Assembly: GCA_937625935.1 (NCBI GenBank)
Contig: OW569374.1
Span: 248,001 to 312,000, forward strand
Length of the DNA stretch: 64,000 nt
Direction: 5' to 3'
DNA from: Tetramitus jugosus
Lineage: Eukaryota; Heterolobosea; Eutetramitea; Acrasida; Vahlkampfiidae
Shown here piece by piece: positions 34,493-46,138 of this stretch. Below the pieces are notes generated by a model, which did not search any database, had not been told where the DNA came from, and saw nothing but the letters and a program-made list of their open reading frames with translations. A program made the position numbers and the translations under genes. Position 1 is the stretch's first letter; every line of letters begins with the position of its first letter.

Positions 34493-37400
34493 ATGTCAAG
34501 CAAAACCAACACAAACGATCCAATATTGTTGAGAGAGGATCATGGAAGTGATCACCTGATCCAGGGAAACAACGTTCTGAAAATGGTTTTTAGTGACCTG
34601 TGGATGCCTTTGATTCAATTTGTTTCCAAGATCATGGAACGACACAACAGCACAACAGTACCCATTCATTCATCATCTAATCAAGCAACAAACCAATTGT
34701 TGCGAGACGCATTCATATGTGTGCCTCCAGACGCAGAAAAGCAACCAAGCAGCCTCAACAGACTCAATTTTCAGCATAGCTTAAGTCAGAGTGAAATTGT
34801 GAATCTTGTGATCTATTCCATGGTTCCTAAAGTACCAAAGATGAAAACTCAGCATGTATTGGCGTATGGTTACTCTCTCCCACGGCCTGGTCTAAACAGT
34901 GTCAGTGCTTTCAATAGTGCTGAGTGTTTCTTTCCGAATACTGTTGTTAATGTGGTGAAGGGTCATGCGTGGAACGGGTTACTCAGTTTGATTGGTGATG
35001 AACTAATGACCTATATTCTGAAGTATTCGATTGTGCTTGTTCCAGTACCTAATGGAGCTTATCTTCAAGTATCAGGGTGAGTATGCTCTTAGTTCGTCCT
35101 GTTTTGCTGTTCAATCTTTGCTCACAAATAATTGGATGTCAATAGAAAACCCATGATACAATACTTATCGACACTTAAAGACAGGATAACATACTCCAAA
35201 GAATTAAGTAACGATTTCTTTCGTTCCAGTAAGTTTAGCCATATTGTTCCTAAAACTACAGTATCTCGCAATACAATTCTCCCTGAGGATGACGACATTA
35301 CTTGGCCAGTGTCTCCCATCCCAAAAGTAGATGTCGTATCACAAGACAGCATCGATAACGCCTTACCTGAGCTGATACCAGATAATGAGAATAGGCAGGA
35401 GTATTCGAAAATCAACAGACCGAAGGTTGATAGTGGTAGCAAGAAACGAAAGCGATCTTCAAACGAAAACAAACGGAAGAGAAACAAAAAGAGACTTTCT
35501 GTGTCCACTTCAACAACAGATCAAACTAAACCGAATGGAAACAGTGATAGTAATGTAATTGTAAGAAAGCCAAGTAACATCATTATTCCCCGAGGGATGA
35601 TCTTTTATTCCTATCGTGTTAGGCCTGTCAATGGTTTTCCTAAAAATCATCTTTTTAACGATGCTACTAATGATGAAGCTGGACTCAGAAAAATCTATTC
35701 GACAATCTTTAACAAATCTCGGTTTTCATATTCCAATACTGGTAACACCACTACTATTAACCAAAAGAAAATGAAGAAGATAAAGAAAAAGTACCCAGAA
35801 TTGATTGATTTGATTAAGCAGCTCCAGAAGAATATTAGAAAAAAATTCACTTCATTCCCTTATCTATTGGATCACCATTGTCCAATCTCTGGGGATGTCC
35901 ATATAAGAGAATTAGCTCAGGAAGTTGAACAACAGGACGCTCAATTATCACAACACAAAGAGGAGCATGAGTCATTAGTGCCTGAGGATTACTGGGAAAT
36001 ATATGACGATGAGCTATTGATGACTCAGCTAGAAGTATGTGAGGAGGAGAGAGTGAAGGCAGTAGCTGATGCAGAACCACTCTCTGCTCGATTCGAAGAG
36101 CTGATTCAAAATAATACTTCTCACACACAAGTTTCAAGTTTTATCCGAGCTGTGTGTAGGCGAATAATTCCATTAGACCTCTGGGGTTCAAAACAAAATA
36201 TGCACAAATTCCATAATAACATCGATAAGTTCATCAGATTGGGGAGATATGAACAATTTTCATTACACAATGCCATGGAGGGAGTGAAAATCACCGATAT
36301 GAAGTGGAATACCAGAAAACGAAATGCAAACACGATGTCATCTTCAAACGCTGAGTTTCAAAAAAGGAGTTCGATCACAGAACAGTTCATCTATTTTGCT
36401 TACACTGATATTGTGGTACCACTACTTCGAACTTATTTTTATTGTACAGAGAGTAACACGGATAGAATGTCCGTTTATTATTTCAAGAGATCTGTTTGGG
36501 CTGATGTAAGTGTTTTATCTTGGAGACGGTTAATTGATGAGAGTTCTGTATTCCAGAAGATATCAAAGAACGCAGCGTTAGAGGTATTACAGAAGAGCAA
36601 ACTTCCTTGCTCACATGTGAGATTACTACCGAAGCAAACATCTGTGAGACCTATTATTAATCTTGGACAACAAAAGAATGCAAAATCAGAATCGACCAAT
36701 TCTTTGCTTAAAAACATTCTTTTCGTAATGAAGTTTGAAAACGAGCGTCACAAAGAAAGATTGGGAAGTTCTGTATTCAGCACGATTGAAGTTTACACAA
36801 AACTATTGCCTTTTATTAAATTGTGGAGAAAAGCGCACTCAAAAGAGAGACTATATATTTGTTGTACGGATGTTAAGGGAGCATATGATACAATTCCACA
36901 TGCTAAATGTCTCAGTATATTGGAAGATAACATATTTAACCATCCTGAGTATATGATCATGAAACATGCAATTATCCGACCATATATGGGTAAATTATCA
37001 ACAAAGTTTGAACGCTCTGCTTGTTTGCCCGGCCAATTTCCTCAGATCGAACAAATGGCTGGTCAACTTTCATCGAAGTTCAGTAAGAGCGTAATTAACG
37101 ATCAAGTTGTTCATCAATATATTGATAGAGCCCAAATTTTAACGCTGCTTCGTAGTCACATTGAAATGAATGTTATTAAGATGCGATCAAAGTATTATGT
37201 TCAAAAAGTTGGCATTCCCCAAGGTAGTGTTATTTCTCCCTTAATTTGCAGCTACACCTATGGAGACATGGAACGAAAACATTTTAGTGAATTATGTGGT
37301 CTGTATGAAGAAAATGAAGCAGGATTGATTCGCTATTGTCTTATCTGCAACAAGAAGGTTGATCCAATATCGAAGAGAGCATCTACCCGACTTTGTTTCT

Positions 37401-38356
37401 GTAAAGGAATGAGGAGAAACGAAGGAACAAATTCAACAGCAACTGAAAATCCGAAAGAAACTACATATCTTCCCTCTTTGAATATCACTGATACCAGTAG
37501 TGCAGCGTCTACTGTTCCAAAGAAGTCTCTTGGTGTTCTTGTTCGTCTAATCGATGATTTTATGTTTGTTACAAATGACGAGTCAGCGGCACGACAGTTT
37601 GTTATCTCTATTCATTCTGGTTTCCCAGAGTATGGCGTTTCTGTTAATGTGAAGAAAACTAAACTGAGCTTCGACATGGCCGTAGTGTCAACAATCAATG
37701 ACACATACGAAACAACGATGCTCGAAGCTAAGAGTCAAATATTTTGGTGTGGTTTCATTTTTGATGCCAAATCATTTGAAGTTCGGATGGACTATTCAAA
37801 GTACACGGATGGAAAGTTGATGGACAAGGTGTCTAAAGATCAGAAGAATATTGGTCTCAACGTCGCACGAAAGTTAAAGCAAACTATTTCTTGGAAGTGT
37901 AATCCATTGGCGATAGATCGAACTGTGAATTCACACTGGACTGTATGTTTGAATGTATACCAACTTTTTCTATTTTGTGGCATGAAAATGCACGTGTTGT
38001 TGGCAAGTACGCAACGAAATACAGCACACTCTCACCGATTGCTCATCGGAATCATATGTGATGTGATTGGCTACATGTGGGTCTGTATCAAAGCTCGTAC
38101 TTCATCCTTCATAGAGGTGCAAGGATCGTTCACAGACATCACAGAAGCTGAGACGAGCTATCTGGGAATAATCGCATTCCAAACAATTCTAACGAGAAAG
38201 AAAAAGTTTGTGGAGTATAGATCAGTGTTAGAATCTCTGAGCATCATGTTGAGTCACCATTCATTCGAATGCTTGAGTGGAGAAAAGAAACAACTGCTAC
38301 AGGATGTCATCGTTGACTCACACCACGATCTTCTCCTAAAGAAAATACATTATTGA
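34493..38356 (+). CDS. TERT: Telomerase reverse transcriptase (TERT), two exons
   Basis: Catalytic subunit of telomerase, 1264 aa. Exons 34493-35076 and 35146-38356; the GTGAGT/TAG intron joins VSG to KPMIQYL in frame. Domains in order: TEN domain (HVLAYGYSLPRPG, FFPNTVVNVVKGHAWNGLLS, VPVPNGAYLQVSG); a basic disordered linker; TRBD with IPRGMIFYSY, the QFP motif SSFIRAVCRRIIPLDLWGSK and the T motif (TYFYCTES..YYFKRSVW); RT domain with VRPIINLG (motif 2), DVKGAYDTI (motif A, Asp770), VGIPQGSVISPLICSYTYGD (B'), RLIDDFMF (C, Asp998-Asp999), FPEYGVSVNVKKT (D) and FWCGFIF (E); and a C-terminal thumb of about 190 aa. All three catalytic aspartates are present. A Ser/Thr-rich insertion with a Cys pair sits between B' and C. 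Stop lies 16 bp from the convergent NUFIP-like gene. Confidence 0.96.
35077..35145 (+). other. TERT intron (69 nt)
   Basis: GTGAGT donor, TAG acceptor, phase 2; it lies at the end of the TEN domain and removes an in-frame TGA at 35078. Confidence 0.88.
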
Positions 38357-41247: not shown

Positions 41248-41318
41248 CTCGATCACCGGGAATCGAACCCGGGTCGCCAGAGTGACAGTCTGGAATGCTA
41301 CCCCTATACCATGACCGA
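41248..41318 (-). tRNA. tRNA-Asp (GTC)
   Basis: 71 nt without an intron. The acceptor stem TCGGTCA/TGATCGA pairs fully (one G-U) with discriminator G. The anticodon stem is CCAGA/TCTGG with loop CTGTCAC, giving anticodon GTC. The T arm is CCGGG-TTCGATT-CCCGG, which also supplies the B box; the A box is in the D arm (TGGTATAGGGG). It ends in a T5 terminator. The gene's upstream side faces the retrotransposon-like units. Confidence 0.95.
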
Positions 41319-41388
41319 TGTTGCATGAGAATCATAGGTTGAATAAAACACAGAAAAAACAAAAAAACGCAGAAAAAAACGGAATCAC

Positions 41389-42537
41389 ATGTCTGGTGAT
41401 TCAACAAATTTGGTGAAGGAATACGGCAACAGCCGTTATGCAGTGTGGACCACTGCACGGAAAGGCACGAGGCCAAGTGACAGAGAGGTCGTCATTACTG
41501 GCAACGGTAATGGCGTCTCTCAGTCATCTTTGGCAAGAAAGATTGGAGAGGAGTTTGGTGACTGGCTCAACCGAGTCCAAGTCATCAAAAGGAAAGGCCA
41601 GCAACGCTTTGTTGCATGGGTGACGGTCAAGGGTGACCGCATCTATGACTTTGTTGATTTGTTCAACAAGCAAAGGAGGATTGGCAATAGCACTGCTGCA
41701 CCCAAGCGCAGTGTTGATTGCACAAGAAAGGTGGTCGTCCATGGCATGAAGAACATGTCAGTGGACGACATCAAGAAGCTACTGGGACCTGAAAAGGTCG
41801 CCAGTGTGCTCAAGAAGCGTGACACTGCTTTCGTGGTCATGGGTGATGAAACCTATGCACAAGCAGTGCTCACCGGAGAGAACAAGGTAAAGGCCACGGT
41901 CACTCGATACGTCGAGAGGCCACATGATCCTCTCAAGGCCGTCAACAAGAGGTTGACAAAGATGTACGAGGAGCTGCTGACGGTGGTTGACGCACTGCGT
42001 CGACAGGTCACAGAACTCACCAAGGAATTGGCAAAGACAAAGGGCCAAGAGGGCAACAAACCGGTTCCGATACCGGAACAAGAAGTTGCACAAAGAACTG
42101 CTCCTGGTCTGATGGAGACAGAAGAACAAAGGAGTGCAACACCACTGCCAACAGTGCCTGTTGCACAGCTCAGCGCTGAAAATCAGCAAATCCTGGAGCA
42201 AGTGAATGCCACTTCTCCAGTGTTTGCTAGAGCGAAGAAGGAAATTGCTGCATTGGCACTGGCCAGTGCACGCAAAAGGTATGGTTTGACTGAGGACGAA
42301 CCAGTCATTGTGGATGTGGACGACGACTCCGAAAAGGAGATTCAAAGTCCACAACTCAATGACAACAAGAAGAGGAGTGCTAGGATCACACTGGGTGATC
42401 TGAGGAGCAACAAGGCCCAAAACAAGAAAACAACAACAGATGGCTCTGTGTCCATCGGCGGTCCTACTACAAGGTTACGCTCTTTGATGAAGGGCATCAA
42501 TCAAAACACTCACCTGAGTGATTCTTCCAACCTGTAG
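41389..42537 (+). CDS. Retrotransposon ORF1-like protein (two RRM-like folds, coiled coil)
   Basis: 382 aa. Two segments look like RRM folds: residues about 31-95 (EVVITGNGNGVSQSSLARKI ... RFVAWVTVKGDRIYDFVDLF) and 113-172 (KVVVHGMKNMSVDDIKKLLG ... AFVVMGDETYAQAVLTG). A coiled coil follows (KAVNKRLTKMYEELLTVVDA then RRQVTELTKELAK, about 183-215), then a charged disordered tail. An RRM plus coiled-coil layout is that of the RNA-chaperone ORF1p of LINEs, although there the coiled coil precedes the RRM. No CCHC knuckle is seen. No homology search was possible, so the LINE assignment rests on fold pattern and on the neighbouring ORF2-type zinc domain. Confidence 0.6.
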   Translation: MSGDSTNLVKEYGNSRYAVWTTARKGTRPSDREVVITGNGNGVSQSSLARKIGEEFGDWLNRVQVIKRKGQQRFVAWVTVKGDRIYDFVDLFNKQRRIGNSTAAPKRSVDCTRKVVVHGMKNMSVDDIKKLLGPEKVASVLKKRDTAFVVMGDETYAQAVLTGENKVKATVTRYVERPHDPLKAVNKRLTKMYEELLTVVDALRRQVTELTKELAKTKGQEGNKPVPIPEQEVAQRTAPGLMETEEQRSATPLPTVPVAQLSAENQQILEQVNATSPVFARAKKEIAALALASARKRYGLTEDEPVIVDVDDDSEKEIQSPQLNDNKKRSARITLGDLRSNKAQNKKTTTDGSVSIGGPTTRLRSLMKGINQNTHLSDSSNL

Positions 42538-42568
42538 GTGCACCGTCGGGGACAACAAGAGAAGAAGA

Positions 42569-42598
42569 GTGAGCGACGCCCTACGGGTCGTCACTCAC
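42569..42598 (+). other. 3' UTR hairpin of retro-unit 1, UAC triloop
   Basis: GTGAGCGACGCCC, loop TAC, GGGTCGTCACTCAC: 12 pairs, one C-A mismatch and a single bulged T. Located between the stop codon and AATAAA. Confidence 0.75.
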
Positions 42599-42613
42599 AA
42601 AACAAGTCAATAA

Positions 42614-43360
42614 ATGAGCAATCGTGTGCTTGCGCACACTTGGTTGTATGGAACAAAAAAAAACACAGAAAAAACAGCAAAGGGGTTTATGCACATAATC
42701 CGATGTAATGGGCAATACGCCAGAGGTCGTGATGATCTCAAAGAGATACTCTTCAGGGAAAGAAAGGCCACAATCGAACAGTACCCAGAGTGGTGGTTAC
42801 AGTCTGCCGCAATGGAGCACAAGAACCAATTCGAGTTTCTCAAGAACCCCTTTGTTATAGATCGCCGGTTGGAATGGTTCCACGCACAGATCAGAAGCGG
42901 TACATTGCACACTAGAGCAGTGTGTAATGATTTGTATGATGATGACGAACCGGATCTGTGTCCAAGGTGCGGTATTGAGTCAGAAACCATCATTCACTGT
43001 CTGATCCGATGCAAGTGTGCTATAGACGCTCGTCGAAAACTTGTGTTGGAAGTTTACAACAAACTGCTCAGACTCCCATTGCATCGAGAATCGAATGTGA
43101 ATTTGTGGTTTGACAAAGTTGTATTCAGAAATGGGGTACTTCTCCCGAGATCCCGGAAGACCAGTCGGGAGTACCTCTCGGGAATGATGGGCGTTGAAAG
43201 TGAAGCTCTTGATGAGGTTATGGATGCGCTGGTGAAGAATGGAATGAAGTTAGAATTAGCCCTTCGCAAGGCACGTAGCTTTGTCAGTTGGGTAAAGAGT
43301 CGCTGCATCGTTACTTTGCACACACTTTACCAGCAATCAAAAGACTACAAACAGAAGTAA
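42614..43360 (+). CDS. LINE ORF2 C-terminal fragment with zinc-binding domain
   Basis: 248 aa open frame, part of unit 2. It starts at an ATG overlapping the AATAAA of unit 1 and reads through the poly(A)/leader junction (residues 1-26), so an alternative start is ATG 42692 (MHIIRCNGQ). Residues about 96-135 (IRSGTLHTRAVCNDLYDDDE ... CPRCGIESETIIHCLIRC) are a reverse-transcriptase zinc-binding module, CX2CX8HX4C, as found at the end of non-LTR retrotransposon ORF2. The reverse transcriptase and endonuclease domains are absent. The frame is intact, so either this is a 5'-truncated insertion or it encodes a small protein. Confidence 0.65.
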   Translation: MSNRVLAHTWLYGTKKNTEKTAKGFMHIIRCNGQYARGRDDLKEILFRERKATIEQYPEWWLQSAAMEHKNQFEFLKNPFVIDRRLEWFHAQIRSGTLHTRAVCNDLYDDDEPDLCPRCGIESETIIHCLIRCKCAIDARRKLVLEVYNKLLRLPLHRESNVNLWFDKVVFRNGVLLPRSRKTSREYLSGMMGVESEALDEVMDALVKNGMKLELALRKARSFVSWVKSRCIVTLHTLYQQSKDYKQK

Positions 43361-43378
43361 CGCTCTCCGAGCGTTACT
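43356..43378 (+). other. Perfect hairpin with UCC triloop (unit 2)
   Basis: AGTAACGCTC, loop TCC, GAGCGTTACT; ten base pairs, no mismatch, overlapping the ORF stop. Confidence 0.85.
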
Positions 43379-43390
43379 GAAAGGTAAGAC

Positions 43391-43415
43391 TAGTGCCGCT
43401 CTGCGAGCGGCACTA
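43391..43415 (+). other. Perfect hairpin with UGC triloop (unit 2)
   Basis: TAGTGCCGCTC, loop TGC, GAGCGGCACTA; eleven base pairs, no mismatch. Confidence 0.85.
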
Positions 43416-43637
43416 TGAGTATAAGTGAAATTAATGGAAAGAAAGATAAACAATAAAGTGAGCAACTGCGCGTTGTATCAAAAAAAAAAAAAAAACAGAA
43501 AAAACAGCAAAAGCGCCTCTTTAGTGGAATCAAGAAGGATATCGCCAAGAAGACAGCAAAACAGTTCGTGGATAATACTAAGAGGAGATGTGTTGAGGTG
43601 ATGCTTCGCCTCTTCACAACCTCCAAAGAGATGGCTG

Positions 43638-43666
43638 GTTGCTGATGCTCTACGAGCACCAGCAAC
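43638..43666 (+). other. Hairpin with UAC triloop (unit 3)
   Basis: GTTGCTGATGCTC, loop TAC, GAGCACCAGCAAC; twelve pairs and one A-C mismatch. Confidence 0.8.
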
Positions 43667-43680
43667 AAACAATGCAAAAG

Positions 43681-43699
43681 TGACGGCATTCTGCCGTCA
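43681..43699 (+). other. Perfect hairpin with UUC triloop (unit 3)
   Basis: TGACGGCA, loop TTC, TGCCGTCA; eight base pairs. Confidence 0.8.
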
Positions 43700-43778
43700 T
43701 AAACAGCTACATCATGTGGAAGAGAAACAACAACGAATAAACAGCGCAACCATTGGTTGTATTAAAAAAAAAAAAAAA

Positions 43779-44050
43779 CAGCAAAAGCGCCTCGTGATGT
43801 CCATGGTCAACGGGAAAAAAGACACAGAGGCGAAAGCTGTTCATTGATACGCTTGAGGATATCAAGCAACACCAAACATTCCAGGAAGAGAATGTGTATC
43901 AGTCAAGGAACAGGCTGGAGTTTGTCAAACAATGTTTGACTTTTGATGGATACATCAAAAGAAGGCAATGTGACGATTGCTACCTCGCTAGATACGTACC
44001 AACTACGGAAAATAAAGAGAGCACTACTCACAACTACGTAAAGGTCTAAT
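43779..44050 (+). mobile_element. Retro-unit 4: leader plus unmatched body, right end not clear
   Basis: Starts CAGCAAAAGCGCCTC right after the A15 of unit 3, identical to unit 3 there, then diverges. A frame of about 70 codons (LFIDTLEDIKQHQTFQEENV ... QCDDCYLARYV) ends at a TAA at 44047. No poly(A) or UNC hairpin was found at its end, so the right border is a guess. It could be a truncated or decayed unit. Confidence 0.5.
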
Positions 44051-44320
44051 CAAACAAAAACTCATGGCCAACTCGACTGTGAAACCTCTATCCGGAGGGC
44101 ATTTATTTGGAAAACCACAAAGTTTTCCGGCGGAGTTTCGAAAGTGACCTTTTTGGAACCATCCAAGCTACATAAAAGAATCTTGACGAAAAAAATAGTG
44201 ACCAACTAAGGAATTTTTTCTGGAATCCGCTTCGGATGGAAATAGACTAGTTGTCGAAATGATACACCAAGAGGATTGTGTTCCTCTCACCAACAATTAA
44301 CTGAAAACAAGAGATAAATC

Positions 44321-46138
44321 ATGTCATGTATTGATATTATATGTGTCCACTACGCAGACAGTGATACTTACAAGTGCTCTCCATTCTTTGTCCGGTTCTC
44401 TCAAAAGTCGACCGAGACCAATCTGGTTCGCATCTATGTCCACGAAGAGAATCCTCCTTGTTGTATGTCTTCGGGTGCAGAAAGCATGGATCCCACATCT
44501 TCCTCCGAATCACCTCCACGATCCACAACAACGATACTACCGCACCCTCAAAACGTGCTCGACAATCGAACAGTTCAGTCTCATCGTAACACGGAGAGCG
44601 TCACTGGAGACACGTGCTTTGTGCTCGAGAAGGGACACAAATATCCCTATTTTGTGAAAGCGAAACAATTTCATGACCGTTCATTCTCGATCAAATCATT
44701 CATTCCTTCGACACCGGATTCCTCATGCTCTTCGGCATCGAGCTCTCGGTCATTCACCCCCTCTTCGAGCTCATCCATGACACCAATGACACCCAGGACA
44801 CCTTCCACACCGCTCACACCACTAACACCACTCAGTCGAGCTCAAACACCCCTGCCTTTCACTTCCTCTCAAGCAGACTTGCGTCACTGCTATTCCAATC
44901 ATCCTCAAGTTATGACCTCACAACAATCACCACCAACACAACAACAACAACAAAAACAACGACGACAGCACTCTGTGAGTGAGCCAGCGACTCCTGAGAG
45001 ACACAAGCGAAGTGGCCTCTTCTCTAAATTGAGACGTCATAGCTCTCGACACAAACTCGCAATCGATGAGAACACATCCGCAATGCTCAACTCGGATTCT
45101 TGTCCAGATTTAGGAAACAACGAAGAGGAATCGATAGCCGGTGAAACACCCAACGGTTCTCCTGCTTGTCATCAACACGAAATGAACCTCAATGGTTGCC
45201 AAGATGATCATGTGATGATGCCCAATCCAACGGAACCAACAATGAAGAAAAAGAAATGGATGGACCGTTGGTTGGACAAGATTAATCGTGAAACGCATCA
45301 CGAAGAAGTGTTGACTCCACCTTCGGACTTTATTAAACGAATGAAGTTGAAGAAGGAAGTGACCAAGATTACTCTAAAGGCCAATGGACAGACCATTGAA
45401 GGCCGAATATTCCTCTGGGACAGTAAGCAAAGGTGCATCATTAGCGACATTGATGGAACCATTACACGAAGTGACACCAAGGGCCACATTTTAACCAGAT
45501 TAGGTGTGAATTACTGTCATCGAGGAATCATTAGCCTGTTCAATCAGTTGAGCAACAAGGGGTACAAGATTATGTACTTGACAGCACGACCCATCACGTT
45601 GTTTCCACGTACGAGGGACTACATTTGTCGCATACAGGAAGGAACGTGCAAAATGCCCATTGGCCCAGTGATCACTGCACCCAACAAGACATGGAACGCT
45701 TTTGCACGCGAATTGATCATTCGGAAACCAGAAACGTTTAAAATCGCCATTTTGAAAACAATAAGAGAGTTGTTCCCTGCAGATCACAATCCTTTTGTTG
45801 CTGGGTGGGGCAATCGAACAACAGACGATTGTTCATACATATCTGTTGGTATAGAACCTTCGAGAGCATTCCGAATTAATTGTAAGGGTGAAATTGTGAC
45901 TTCAGATGATCAATTCTCCTCGATGAGTCATCTCGACCACATGCTTGAGAAATTAGGCGTATTTCCTCATTGTAGATCTGGTGTATCTGAAGCAGTTCAA
46001 AGATATCATGATCTGCAGGAGACTTTACAACATCCCCTTGAGTTAGTTGTGAATATGAATCGAAAGTCAAAGGGAGGTATTGATATTGAAAAATTCATCA
46101 GAGAACAATACTCAACTCCTGGAAGCACTGAAACATAA
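44321..46138 (+). CDS. LPIN: Lipin, phosphatidate phosphatase
   Basis: Mg-dependent phosphatidic acid phosphatase producing diacylglycerol for triacylglycerol and phospholipid synthesis, 605 aa. The start MSCIDIICVHYADSDTYKCS PFFVRF matches the N-LIP core (CIDIIVV..D..xCSPFHVRFGK), but the 20-25 residue amphipathic helix that normally precedes it (VG..NPATLSG) is absent. A long Ser/Thr/Pro and Gln-rich middle is followed by the C-LIP/LNS2 phosphatase domain: IISDIDGTITRSD (DxDxT catalytic motif), YLTARPITLFPRTRDYI, MPIGPVITAPNKTWNA, LPFVAGWGNRTTD-like PFVAGWGNRTTDDC and YISVGIEPSRAF. The retro-units end about 270 bp upstream, so the missing N-terminus may lie in an unseen exon or may have been lost. 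Confidence 0.92.
   Translation: MSCIDIICVHYADSDTYKCSPFFVRFSQKSTETNLVRIYVHEENPPCCMSSGAESMDPTSSSESPPRSTTTILPHPQNVLDNRTVQSHRNTESVTGDTCFVLEKGHKYPYFVKAKQFHDRSFSIKSFIPSTPDSSCSSASSSRSFTPSSSSSMTPMTPRTPSTPLTPLTPLSRAQTPLPFTSSQADLRHCYSNHPQVMTSQQSPPTQQQQQKQRRQHSVSEPATPERHKRSGLFSKLRRHSSRHKLAIDENTSAMLNSDSCPDLGNNEEESIAGETPNGSPACHQHEMNLNGCQDDHVMMPNPTEPTMKKKKWMDRWLDKINRETHHEEVLTPPSDFIKRMKLKKEVTKITLKANGQTIEGRIFLWDSKQRCIISDIDGTITRSDTKGHILTRLGVNYCHRGIISLFNQLSNKGYKIMYLTARPITLFPRTRDYICRIQEGTCKMPIGPVITAPNKTWNAFARELIIRKPETFKIAILKTIRELFPADHNPFVAGWGNRTTDDCSYISVGIEPSRAFRINCKGEIVTSDDQFSSMSHLDHMLEKLGVFPHCRSGVSEAVQRYHDLQETLQHPLELVVNMNRKSKGGIDIEKFIREQYSTPGSTET

Follow-up and report, generated by a model that had tools for sequence, protein, structure and literature searches.

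How does a row of four retrotransposon-like units come to stand head to tail beside a single tRNA gene, with poly(A) tracts closing three of them and what looks like the same leader directly behind each tract? The question is raised by a locus of the heterolobosean Tetramitus jugosus, which lies in a stretch of 64,000 nucleotides (assembly GCA_937625935.1, contig OW569374.1; G000:C31:248001-312000 in our numbering) that is referred to here as the window; the genome searched comprises 26.35 Mb in 56 contigs. A reading made from the sequence only had proposed either serial insertion at one place or reverse transcription of several related RNAs joined end to end. The units are best explained, with a probability of about 93%, as a pile of separate insertions by a tRNA-targeting family of long interspersed nuclear elements (LINEs) and relatives of these that carry only the first open reading frame (ORF1).

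The tRNA-Asp gene and the four head-to-tail bodies are present as the sequence-only reading had described them, the units lying on the + strand, pointing away from the tRNA and beginning 43 bp upstream of it. Units 1-3 do end in AATAAA followed by poly(A), namely A9 (42655-42663), A16 (43480-43495) and A15 (43764-43778). The fourth, said to run to 44050, lacks poly(A) and can be recognised no further than about 44007. Shared sequence does follow each tract, but it is not a constant leader, as the common word shifts its register from junction to junction. Instead, the ‘leader’ is host tRNA flank that has been duplicated by the insertions, and it contains no element sequence. Units 1, 2 and 3 are flanked by AAAACACAGAAAAAACA (17 bp), ACAGAAAAAACAGCAAA (17 bp) and ACAGCAAAAGCGCCTC (16 bp), respectively, each with exactly two copies in the window (Table 1). 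These duplications overlap, covering positions 27-43, 32-48 and 41-56 of the flank counted from the tRNA, and in ancestral coordinates the insertion points of units 1-4 lie 43, 48, 56 and 56 bp upstream of the gene. Because a separate 16-17 bp flank duplication accompanies each poly(A)-ended unit, each is its own insertion, and serial insertion at one place, 43-56 bp from the tRNA, is borne out for units 1-3.

Words of this length are not expected by chance. Among 1985 random pairs of 80-nt segments from the window, a 15-nt word was common to one pair and none had a longer one. Genome-wide, the third word (at most 1 mismatch) occurs only at its two places in the window, and the joined first and second words (at most 2 mismatches) only at three places there; the reversed-pattern controls of both searches gave 0. 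The idea of a shared leader as part of the element was rejected, since the words are locus-specific, while related copies of the unit bodies run to dozens among the genome matches listed.

Table 1. Features of the tRNA-Asp locus (positions within the window).
Feature	Positions	Strand	Remarks
tRNA-Asp (gtc), target gene	41248..41318	-	ARAGORN
tRNA 5' flank left in place	41319..41361	+	last 17 nt (41345-41361) = left copy of target-site duplication 1
Unit 1: ORF1-only element, family A, intact frame, poly(A)-ended	41362..42659	+	43 bp upstream of tRNA
ORF1-like protein of unit 1, 382 aa	41389..42537	+	predicted RRM-like N-terminal half, then long helix
3'-terminal hairpin motif of unit 1 (GCAAT...GTTGTAT), ahead of poly(A)	42618..42649	+	
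Right copy, target-site duplication 1	42660..42676	+	overlaps A9
Left copy, target-site duplication 2	42665..42681	+	
Unit 2: 5'-truncated LINE 3' end (ORF2 C-terminal part, 3' UTR, poly(A))	42682..43494	+	48 bp from tRNA
3'-terminal hairpin motif of unit 2 (GCAAC...GTTGTAT)	43462..43478	+	
Right copy, target-site duplication 2	43495..43511	+	
Left copy, target-site duplication 3	43504..43519	+	
Unit 3: 5'-truncated LINE 3' end (last ~36 aa of ORF2, 3' UTR, poly(A))	43520..43777	+	56 bp from tRNA
3'-terminal hairpin motif of unit 3 (GCAACC...GGTTGTAT)	43746..43762	+	
Right copy, target-site duplication 3	43778..43793	+	
Unit 4: ORF2-internal LINE fragment (aa about 899-986), without 3' end or poly(A)	43794..44007	+	inserted at 56 bp

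The bodies of the four units differ in origin. Unit 1, which begins AAAAAACGCAG, is 99% identical over 1.3 kb to a copy at another locus (L010); with a complete ORF1, its own ends and no ORF2, it is an ORF1-only non-autonomous element. Unit 2 encodes 225 aa that are 74% identical to residues 1049-1274 of the ORF2 of a LINE on contig C29 and carry a CxxC...H...C motif, and a relative in L012 is 98% identical. A sub-threshold Pfam match of unit 2 to SPO22 was taken as chance. Unit 3 derives from another LINE than unit 2 and matches C28:242308-242563 at 100% over 256 nt. Unit 4 reaches up to 50% amino acid identity to LINE ORF2s, with nucleotide relatives at 80% over about 215 nt and higher over shorter stretches; no right-hand duplication of at least 8 nt of the flank end was found for it in 44001-46000.

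The sequence-only reading had advised looking for similar series at other tRNA genes, and arrays with locus-specific duplications are indeed found at many independent ones. Twenty regions of ~10 kb around ORF1 matches were fetched, the first 20 of 192 planned by contig number, and compared along with smaller regions and loci returned with the searches. The ORF1-only elements considered here form two families, A and B, about 50% identical to each other. Both ends could be placed for 21 ORF1-only units, unit 1 included, which are 1.0-1.5 kb long and are each closed by the hairpin motif and poly(A). In 17 of the 21, a word of 13-34 nt (mode 16) is repeated across the unit, and in one more a word of 11 nt, while 3 of 412 mismatched control pairs reach 12 nt; no usable word was obtained for the third unit of L023 (6 nt), for L029 (3 nt) or for C34 (5 nt), where the duplication is split by a LINE. 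The longest of these words, 34 nt at C35, is mostly poly(A) plus GGTCTAATAATA. The 13-nt word at L027 equals the 5' leader of the adjoining family-A unit, behind the family-B one, and thus consists of duplicated element bases rather than host bases. Consecutive junctions, compared over all arrays with up to 5 As of the poly(A) tract retained, have at least 10 nt in common in 35 of 44 pairs, against 156 of 3954 mismatched pairs. In seven arrays (L018, L019, L023, L030, L031, L033 and the window) two or more duplications are nested in a chain. The units themselves are arranged in various ways: ORF1-only elements stand alone (L015, L016), a LINE is followed by an ORF1-only element (C34, C35), or family A is followed by family B (L023, L033). 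At L030, an ORF1-only unit and a LINE end occupy the 2.3 kb that separate two tRNA-Val genes. Upstream of a tRNA-Glu gene (L028) there is an additional element, starting ATGTCAACACAAGGACCG, which resembles the ORF1 of the C35 LINE; the element families exceed those classified here.

Where the word was usable and the tRNA could be located, the ORF1-only insertions (15 of 15) are 42-56 bp upstream of the gene. The insertion point is at 42-46 bp for family A (11/11 with a usable word), at 46, 56, 56 and 56 bp for family B, and at 47-51 bp for four LINEs, and the targets include Asp, Lys, Asn, Ser, Leu, Tyr, Thr, Ala, Val, Glu, Gly and Arg tRNA genes. The distance seems to depend on the ORF1-only family, being ~44 bp for A and mostly 56 bp for B (exact Mann-Whitney p = 0.003, n=15; p = 3e-5 from 26 5'-end distances with a fixed 10 nt subtracted for family A), the samples being small and the loci chosen non-randomly; at L023 the A and B words are only about 2 bp apart. 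Of the 53 best-scored nuclear tRNAs, 17 have an element match within 6 kb upstream, divergently oriented in 17/17, and 3 have one downstream. Because few tRNA candidates were scored (63 of 1593, and 40 of 302, mostly Leu and Ser genes, in a search with concatenated tRNAs), this genome-wide association is a lower bound.

Poly(A)-ended, head-to-tail units from different families might also be produced by template jumping, in which a single reverse-transcription event joins RNAs end to end, as the sequence-only reading had suggested. A single event would give one outer duplication, not one per unit, while every one of units 1-3 is flanked by a duplication of its own, no two in the same register, and the words between the units are locus-specific and free of element sequence; the per-unit duplications contradict this account, and we give it practically no weight. 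Equally little credit is due to a composite or segmented element in which leaders and inner poly(A) tracts would serve as conserved spacers. Two segments are indeed suggested by the succession of a unit with ORF1 and a unit with an ORF2 end, and a cluster at C42:175905-178262 has the order ORF1, ORF2 end, U3-like end. That cluster, however, comes from other families (ORF2 43% identity, U3 match 75%) and is read from the search matches as an ORF1-only unit ahead of one truncated LINE. Moreover, units are found alone and in other orders at other loci, the LINEs have an ORF1 of their own, and the spacers vary between loci, so that locus-specific spacers contradict the segmented element. An assembly join or chimera, to which repeats are prone, is just as improbable given that the same architecture, with locus-specific duplications, recurs at many independent tRNA genes.

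The remaining rival concerns the order of arrival, and although it deserves somewhat more attention it is still very unlikely. It holds that the outer units are the younger ones, later elements having been attracted by A-rich junctions that earlier insertions had left, and not by the tRNA gene. The junctions are indeed A-rich, and divergence leaves the order unsettled. Such insertions would nevertheless have to occur 1-2 kb from the tRNA, outside the 42-56 bp range that holds every measured ORF1-only insertion and, in ancestral coordinates, the units of the window. At C34, where a LINE near the tRNA stands before a family-A unit, the duplication of the LINE takes in 15 nt of that unit's 5' leader, and at L027 the family-B unit is likewise flanked by a word taken from the family-A unit behind. 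These two loci prove that there the unit nearer the tRNA was the later arrival and the outer unit came first. For the window, we infer from the distance rule that unit 4 came first and unit 1 last, unit 4 presumably being the oldest.

Several observations weigh against a pile of tRNA-directed insertions that arrived in this order. The nested duplications in the window fit either order, as both give the same resulting sequence, and unit 4 has no 3' end, so that its own duplication is not visible. Fewer than 10 nt are common to 9 of the 44 junction pairs. With 106 tRNA genes placed, the 3 kb upstream of the 5' end contain no located tRNA in 38 of 61 cases for family A and 31 of 48 for family B. 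When the first and last poly(A)-ended units of multi-unit loci were compared, the closer relative belonged to the one nearest the tRNA at 10 of 16 loci (overlapping locus L029 dropped), which is not significant, and in the window the relative of unit 3 (100%) is closer than that of unit 1 (99%). An age gradient along the arrays, found in the expected direction at those 10/16 loci only, was dropped as support.

The LINEs of this genome were examined at six loci (C20, C34, C29, C35, C18 and C23). ORF2 is intact in four (1274-1284 aa) and broken or short in C18 and C23, while ORF1 is a full open frame in C20, C29, C35 and C18 and broken in C34 and C23. In C20, C29, C34 and C35, ORF2 begins in the -1 frame before ORF1 ends; the overlap is 4-7 nt long and contains an ATG of ORF2. 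Pfam scans of two ORF2s gave a reverse transcriptase domain (RVT_1, E 1e-24 and 7e-29) and an endonuclease (Exo_endo_phos, E 5e-5 and 1.5e-4, both just under Pfam's own cut-off), and listed no RNase H for these two. The solved structures that are sequence-related to ORF2 are five R2-type or reverse-transcriptase-like entries. Endonuclease, reverse transcriptase, poly(A) and target-site duplication together place the LINEs among the retrotransposons without long terminal repeats (non-LTR) that have an APE-type endonuclease. Open frames of at least 1200 aa hold 10 of 150 ORF2 C-terminal matches. At two LINE 5' ends, L039/L035 (C20) and L037/L041 (C29), long A-runs (A31 and A17) separate the target-site duplication from the start of the LINE. 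A few extra As also precede the 5' ends of ORF1-only units; these As are possibly untemplated or an A-rich leader.

Copies of the ORF1-only elements are numerous. With 108 of 353 candidates scored, family A has 35 full-length matches at 91-100% identity, 34 of them without stops, and 17 B-like matches (~50% identity) are near-full and without stops; 61 family-A and 48 family-B 5' ends were found by pattern. Their proteins are homologous to the LINE ORF1s, being 36-40% identical to three of these and 30% to a fourth (BLASTP range 28-40%), and none of the six LINE loci has an ORF1 close to them. Divergence on this scale speaks against a recent origin of the families by deletion from the LINEs examined. 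In a tree the ORF1-only proteins group apart from the LINE ORF1s with support 80/98 and long branches; P0005 and P0006, known from proteins alone, were placed with the ORF1-only proteins. The pairwise ratio of nonsynonymous to synonymous substitution rates (dN/dS) is 0.26 in family A (9 intact copies, mean dS 0.11) and 0.13 in family B (5 intact copies, mean dS 0.04), the copies having been picked for intactness. Judged by these ratios, purifying selection acts on the proteins of both families, and because dN/dS is low the ORF1-only protein seems to matter for the element's own spread. Opposite the family-B-like ORFs of L020, L021, L023 and L033 there is a recurrent antisense open frame of 219-289 aa, starting MIARAAISFLTFLNT, which is probably a shadow of the coding strand.

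The 382-aa protein of unit 1 has no match in Pfam. Its AlphaFold2 model is of low overall confidence (pLDDT 63), the N-terminal half being better and followed by a long helix. Fold searches matched many RRM proteins, with root-mean-square deviations of 2-3 in single-domain rows (residues about 108-178) and 5-33 in two-domain rows. No L1 ORF1 protein was among the 50 rows listed, an absence that carries no weight. The N-terminal half is thus predicted only to be RRM-like.

LINEs and ORF1-only elements have a 3' motif in common, GCARY...GTTGTAT, followed by poly(A). The 56 unit ends compared had been preselected by an AATAAA-like signal, GTTGTAT and A6, and therefore only the upstream half counts as a finding: GCARY lies within 3-30 nt in 52 of the 56, and the looser CARY within 3-26 nt in 53, against 36% of shuffled upstream stretches. 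In ends picked by AATAAA and A8 alone, GTTGTAT is present in 42 of 45 rows, one of them (L028) by chance and some being second A-runs of one end, compared with 2 of 52 A8 runs without AATAAA. The motif, a putative hairpin, is a candidate for the feature that lets one ORF2 protein recognise both kinds of RNA.

It can be proposed that the machinery recognises the Pol III-transcribed tRNA gene, perhaps through TFIIIB/TFIIIC as known for TRE5-A, and nicks the DNA ~42-56 bp upstream of it. Target-primed reverse transcription would then copy in an RNA that carries a poly(A) tail, with its 5' end towards the tRNA and ~16 bp duplicated. With the landing zone fixed beside the tRNA, a newcomer would shift the older units outwards and re-duplicate nearly the same bases, and it is because the zone stays next to the gene that the nested, register-shifted duplications mimic a leader. 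ORF1-only elements would use their own ORF1 protein and borrow the ORF2 protein in trans, helped by the 3' hairpin motif common to the LINEs. This motif and the shared target zone are indirect pointers to trans mobilisation.

Stacked insertions are ordinary in kind, and those described here illustrate how a fixed landing zone produces them. What is new is the heterolobosean host, together with the divergence, number and spacing behaviour of the ORF1-only partners. It is conceivable, if on balance doubtful, that these families are long-lived ‘ORF1 replicons’ that outnumber intact LINEs, their own ORF1 being selected for action in cis while ORF2 is borrowed in trans, and that ORF1 sets the distance to the tRNA (~44 bp in A and mostly 56 bp in B, a difference of about one helical turn). 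Were this true, the elements would amount to a natural experiment that parts the choice of landing site (ORF1) from the copying itself (ORF2). The apparently different distances of the two families provide a handle on whether the ORF1 protein carries target choice, as is suspected for TRE5-A.

Two observations concern other parts of the genome. A telomerase reverse transcriptase gene, a single open frame of 1074 aa, lies at 35132-38356 on the + strand of the window. Contigs C54 and C56 carry tRNAs and COX1 at identical coordinates, and are apparently the mitochondrial genome present twice. Among the 120 rows listed for the COX1 of C54, the closest match is 87% identical; the nearest ones with a readable species name are from Pleurostomum flabellatum (68%) and Acrasis kona (65%), the only two heteroloboseans there, and point to a host of that group.

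Elements that use tRNA genes as landing sites are known from other organisms; the excerpts cited name TRE3, Skipper-2, DGLT-A, Ty3 and others (PMC5006619, PMC5911963), but these four differ in distance or in the side of the tRNA, or are LTR elements. No report of tRNA-targeting LINEs in Heterolobosea was found in the literature by title, and the available parts of two Naegleria papers mention none. In Polysphondylium pallidum, the non-LTR element NLTR-B is described as lying 39-64 bp upstream of tRNA genes (PMC5911963, in part), and in this it is like the elements here. It differs in having an RNase H domain, absent from the Pfam results for the two ORF2s scanned, and separate ORFs. HAL1 (half-L1) elements of mammals, in the portion of the source available, have ORF1 only, poly(A) and target-site duplications and rely on the reverse transcriptase of full-length LINEs (PMC5322556). 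Families A and B resemble them as ORF1-only, poly(A)-tailed and duplication-flanked elements. HAL1, however, is derived from L1 and is not known to target tRNA genes.

The sequence-only reading knew of no described element with this layout, but the TRE5 elements of Dictyostelium are the same in kind, lying ~50 bp upstream and forming tandems, with an ORF1-only partner (PMC5391098, in part). According to the excerpts used, they lie 44-54 bp upstream of tRNA genes in opposite orientation, with 80.2% of tagged TRE5-A insertions at 47+/-3 bp, and the TRE5-A ORF1 protein binds TFIIIB subunits (PMC5911963, PMC5391098). TREs also make TRE-TRE tandems (PMC5391098, in part), and the same sources describe TRE5-A.2 as containing ORF1 without ORF2 and as apparently mobilised in trans by TRE5-A.1 (PMC5391098, PMC5911963). 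The elements of T. jugosus are likewise non-LTR, lie upstream of tRNA genes with the 5' end facing the tRNA, form tandems and have a partner without ORF2; their divergent insertions at 42-56 bp agree with the TRE5 position, family A being slightly nearer at 42-46 bp. They differ in their heterolobosean host, that of TRE5-A belonging to the Amoebozoa, and in having two diverged ORF1-only families whose distance seems to vary by family. Among 14 homologues of the LINE ORF2 the best is 24% identical, and of the two with species names neither is a dictyostelid. In behaviour and layout, the elements work like TRE5-A.1 and TRE5-A.2. LINE targeting upstream of tRNA genes, with an ORF1-only partner, has already been worked out in social amoebae, and the same solution in a heterolobosean suggests convergence in compact genomes or great age.

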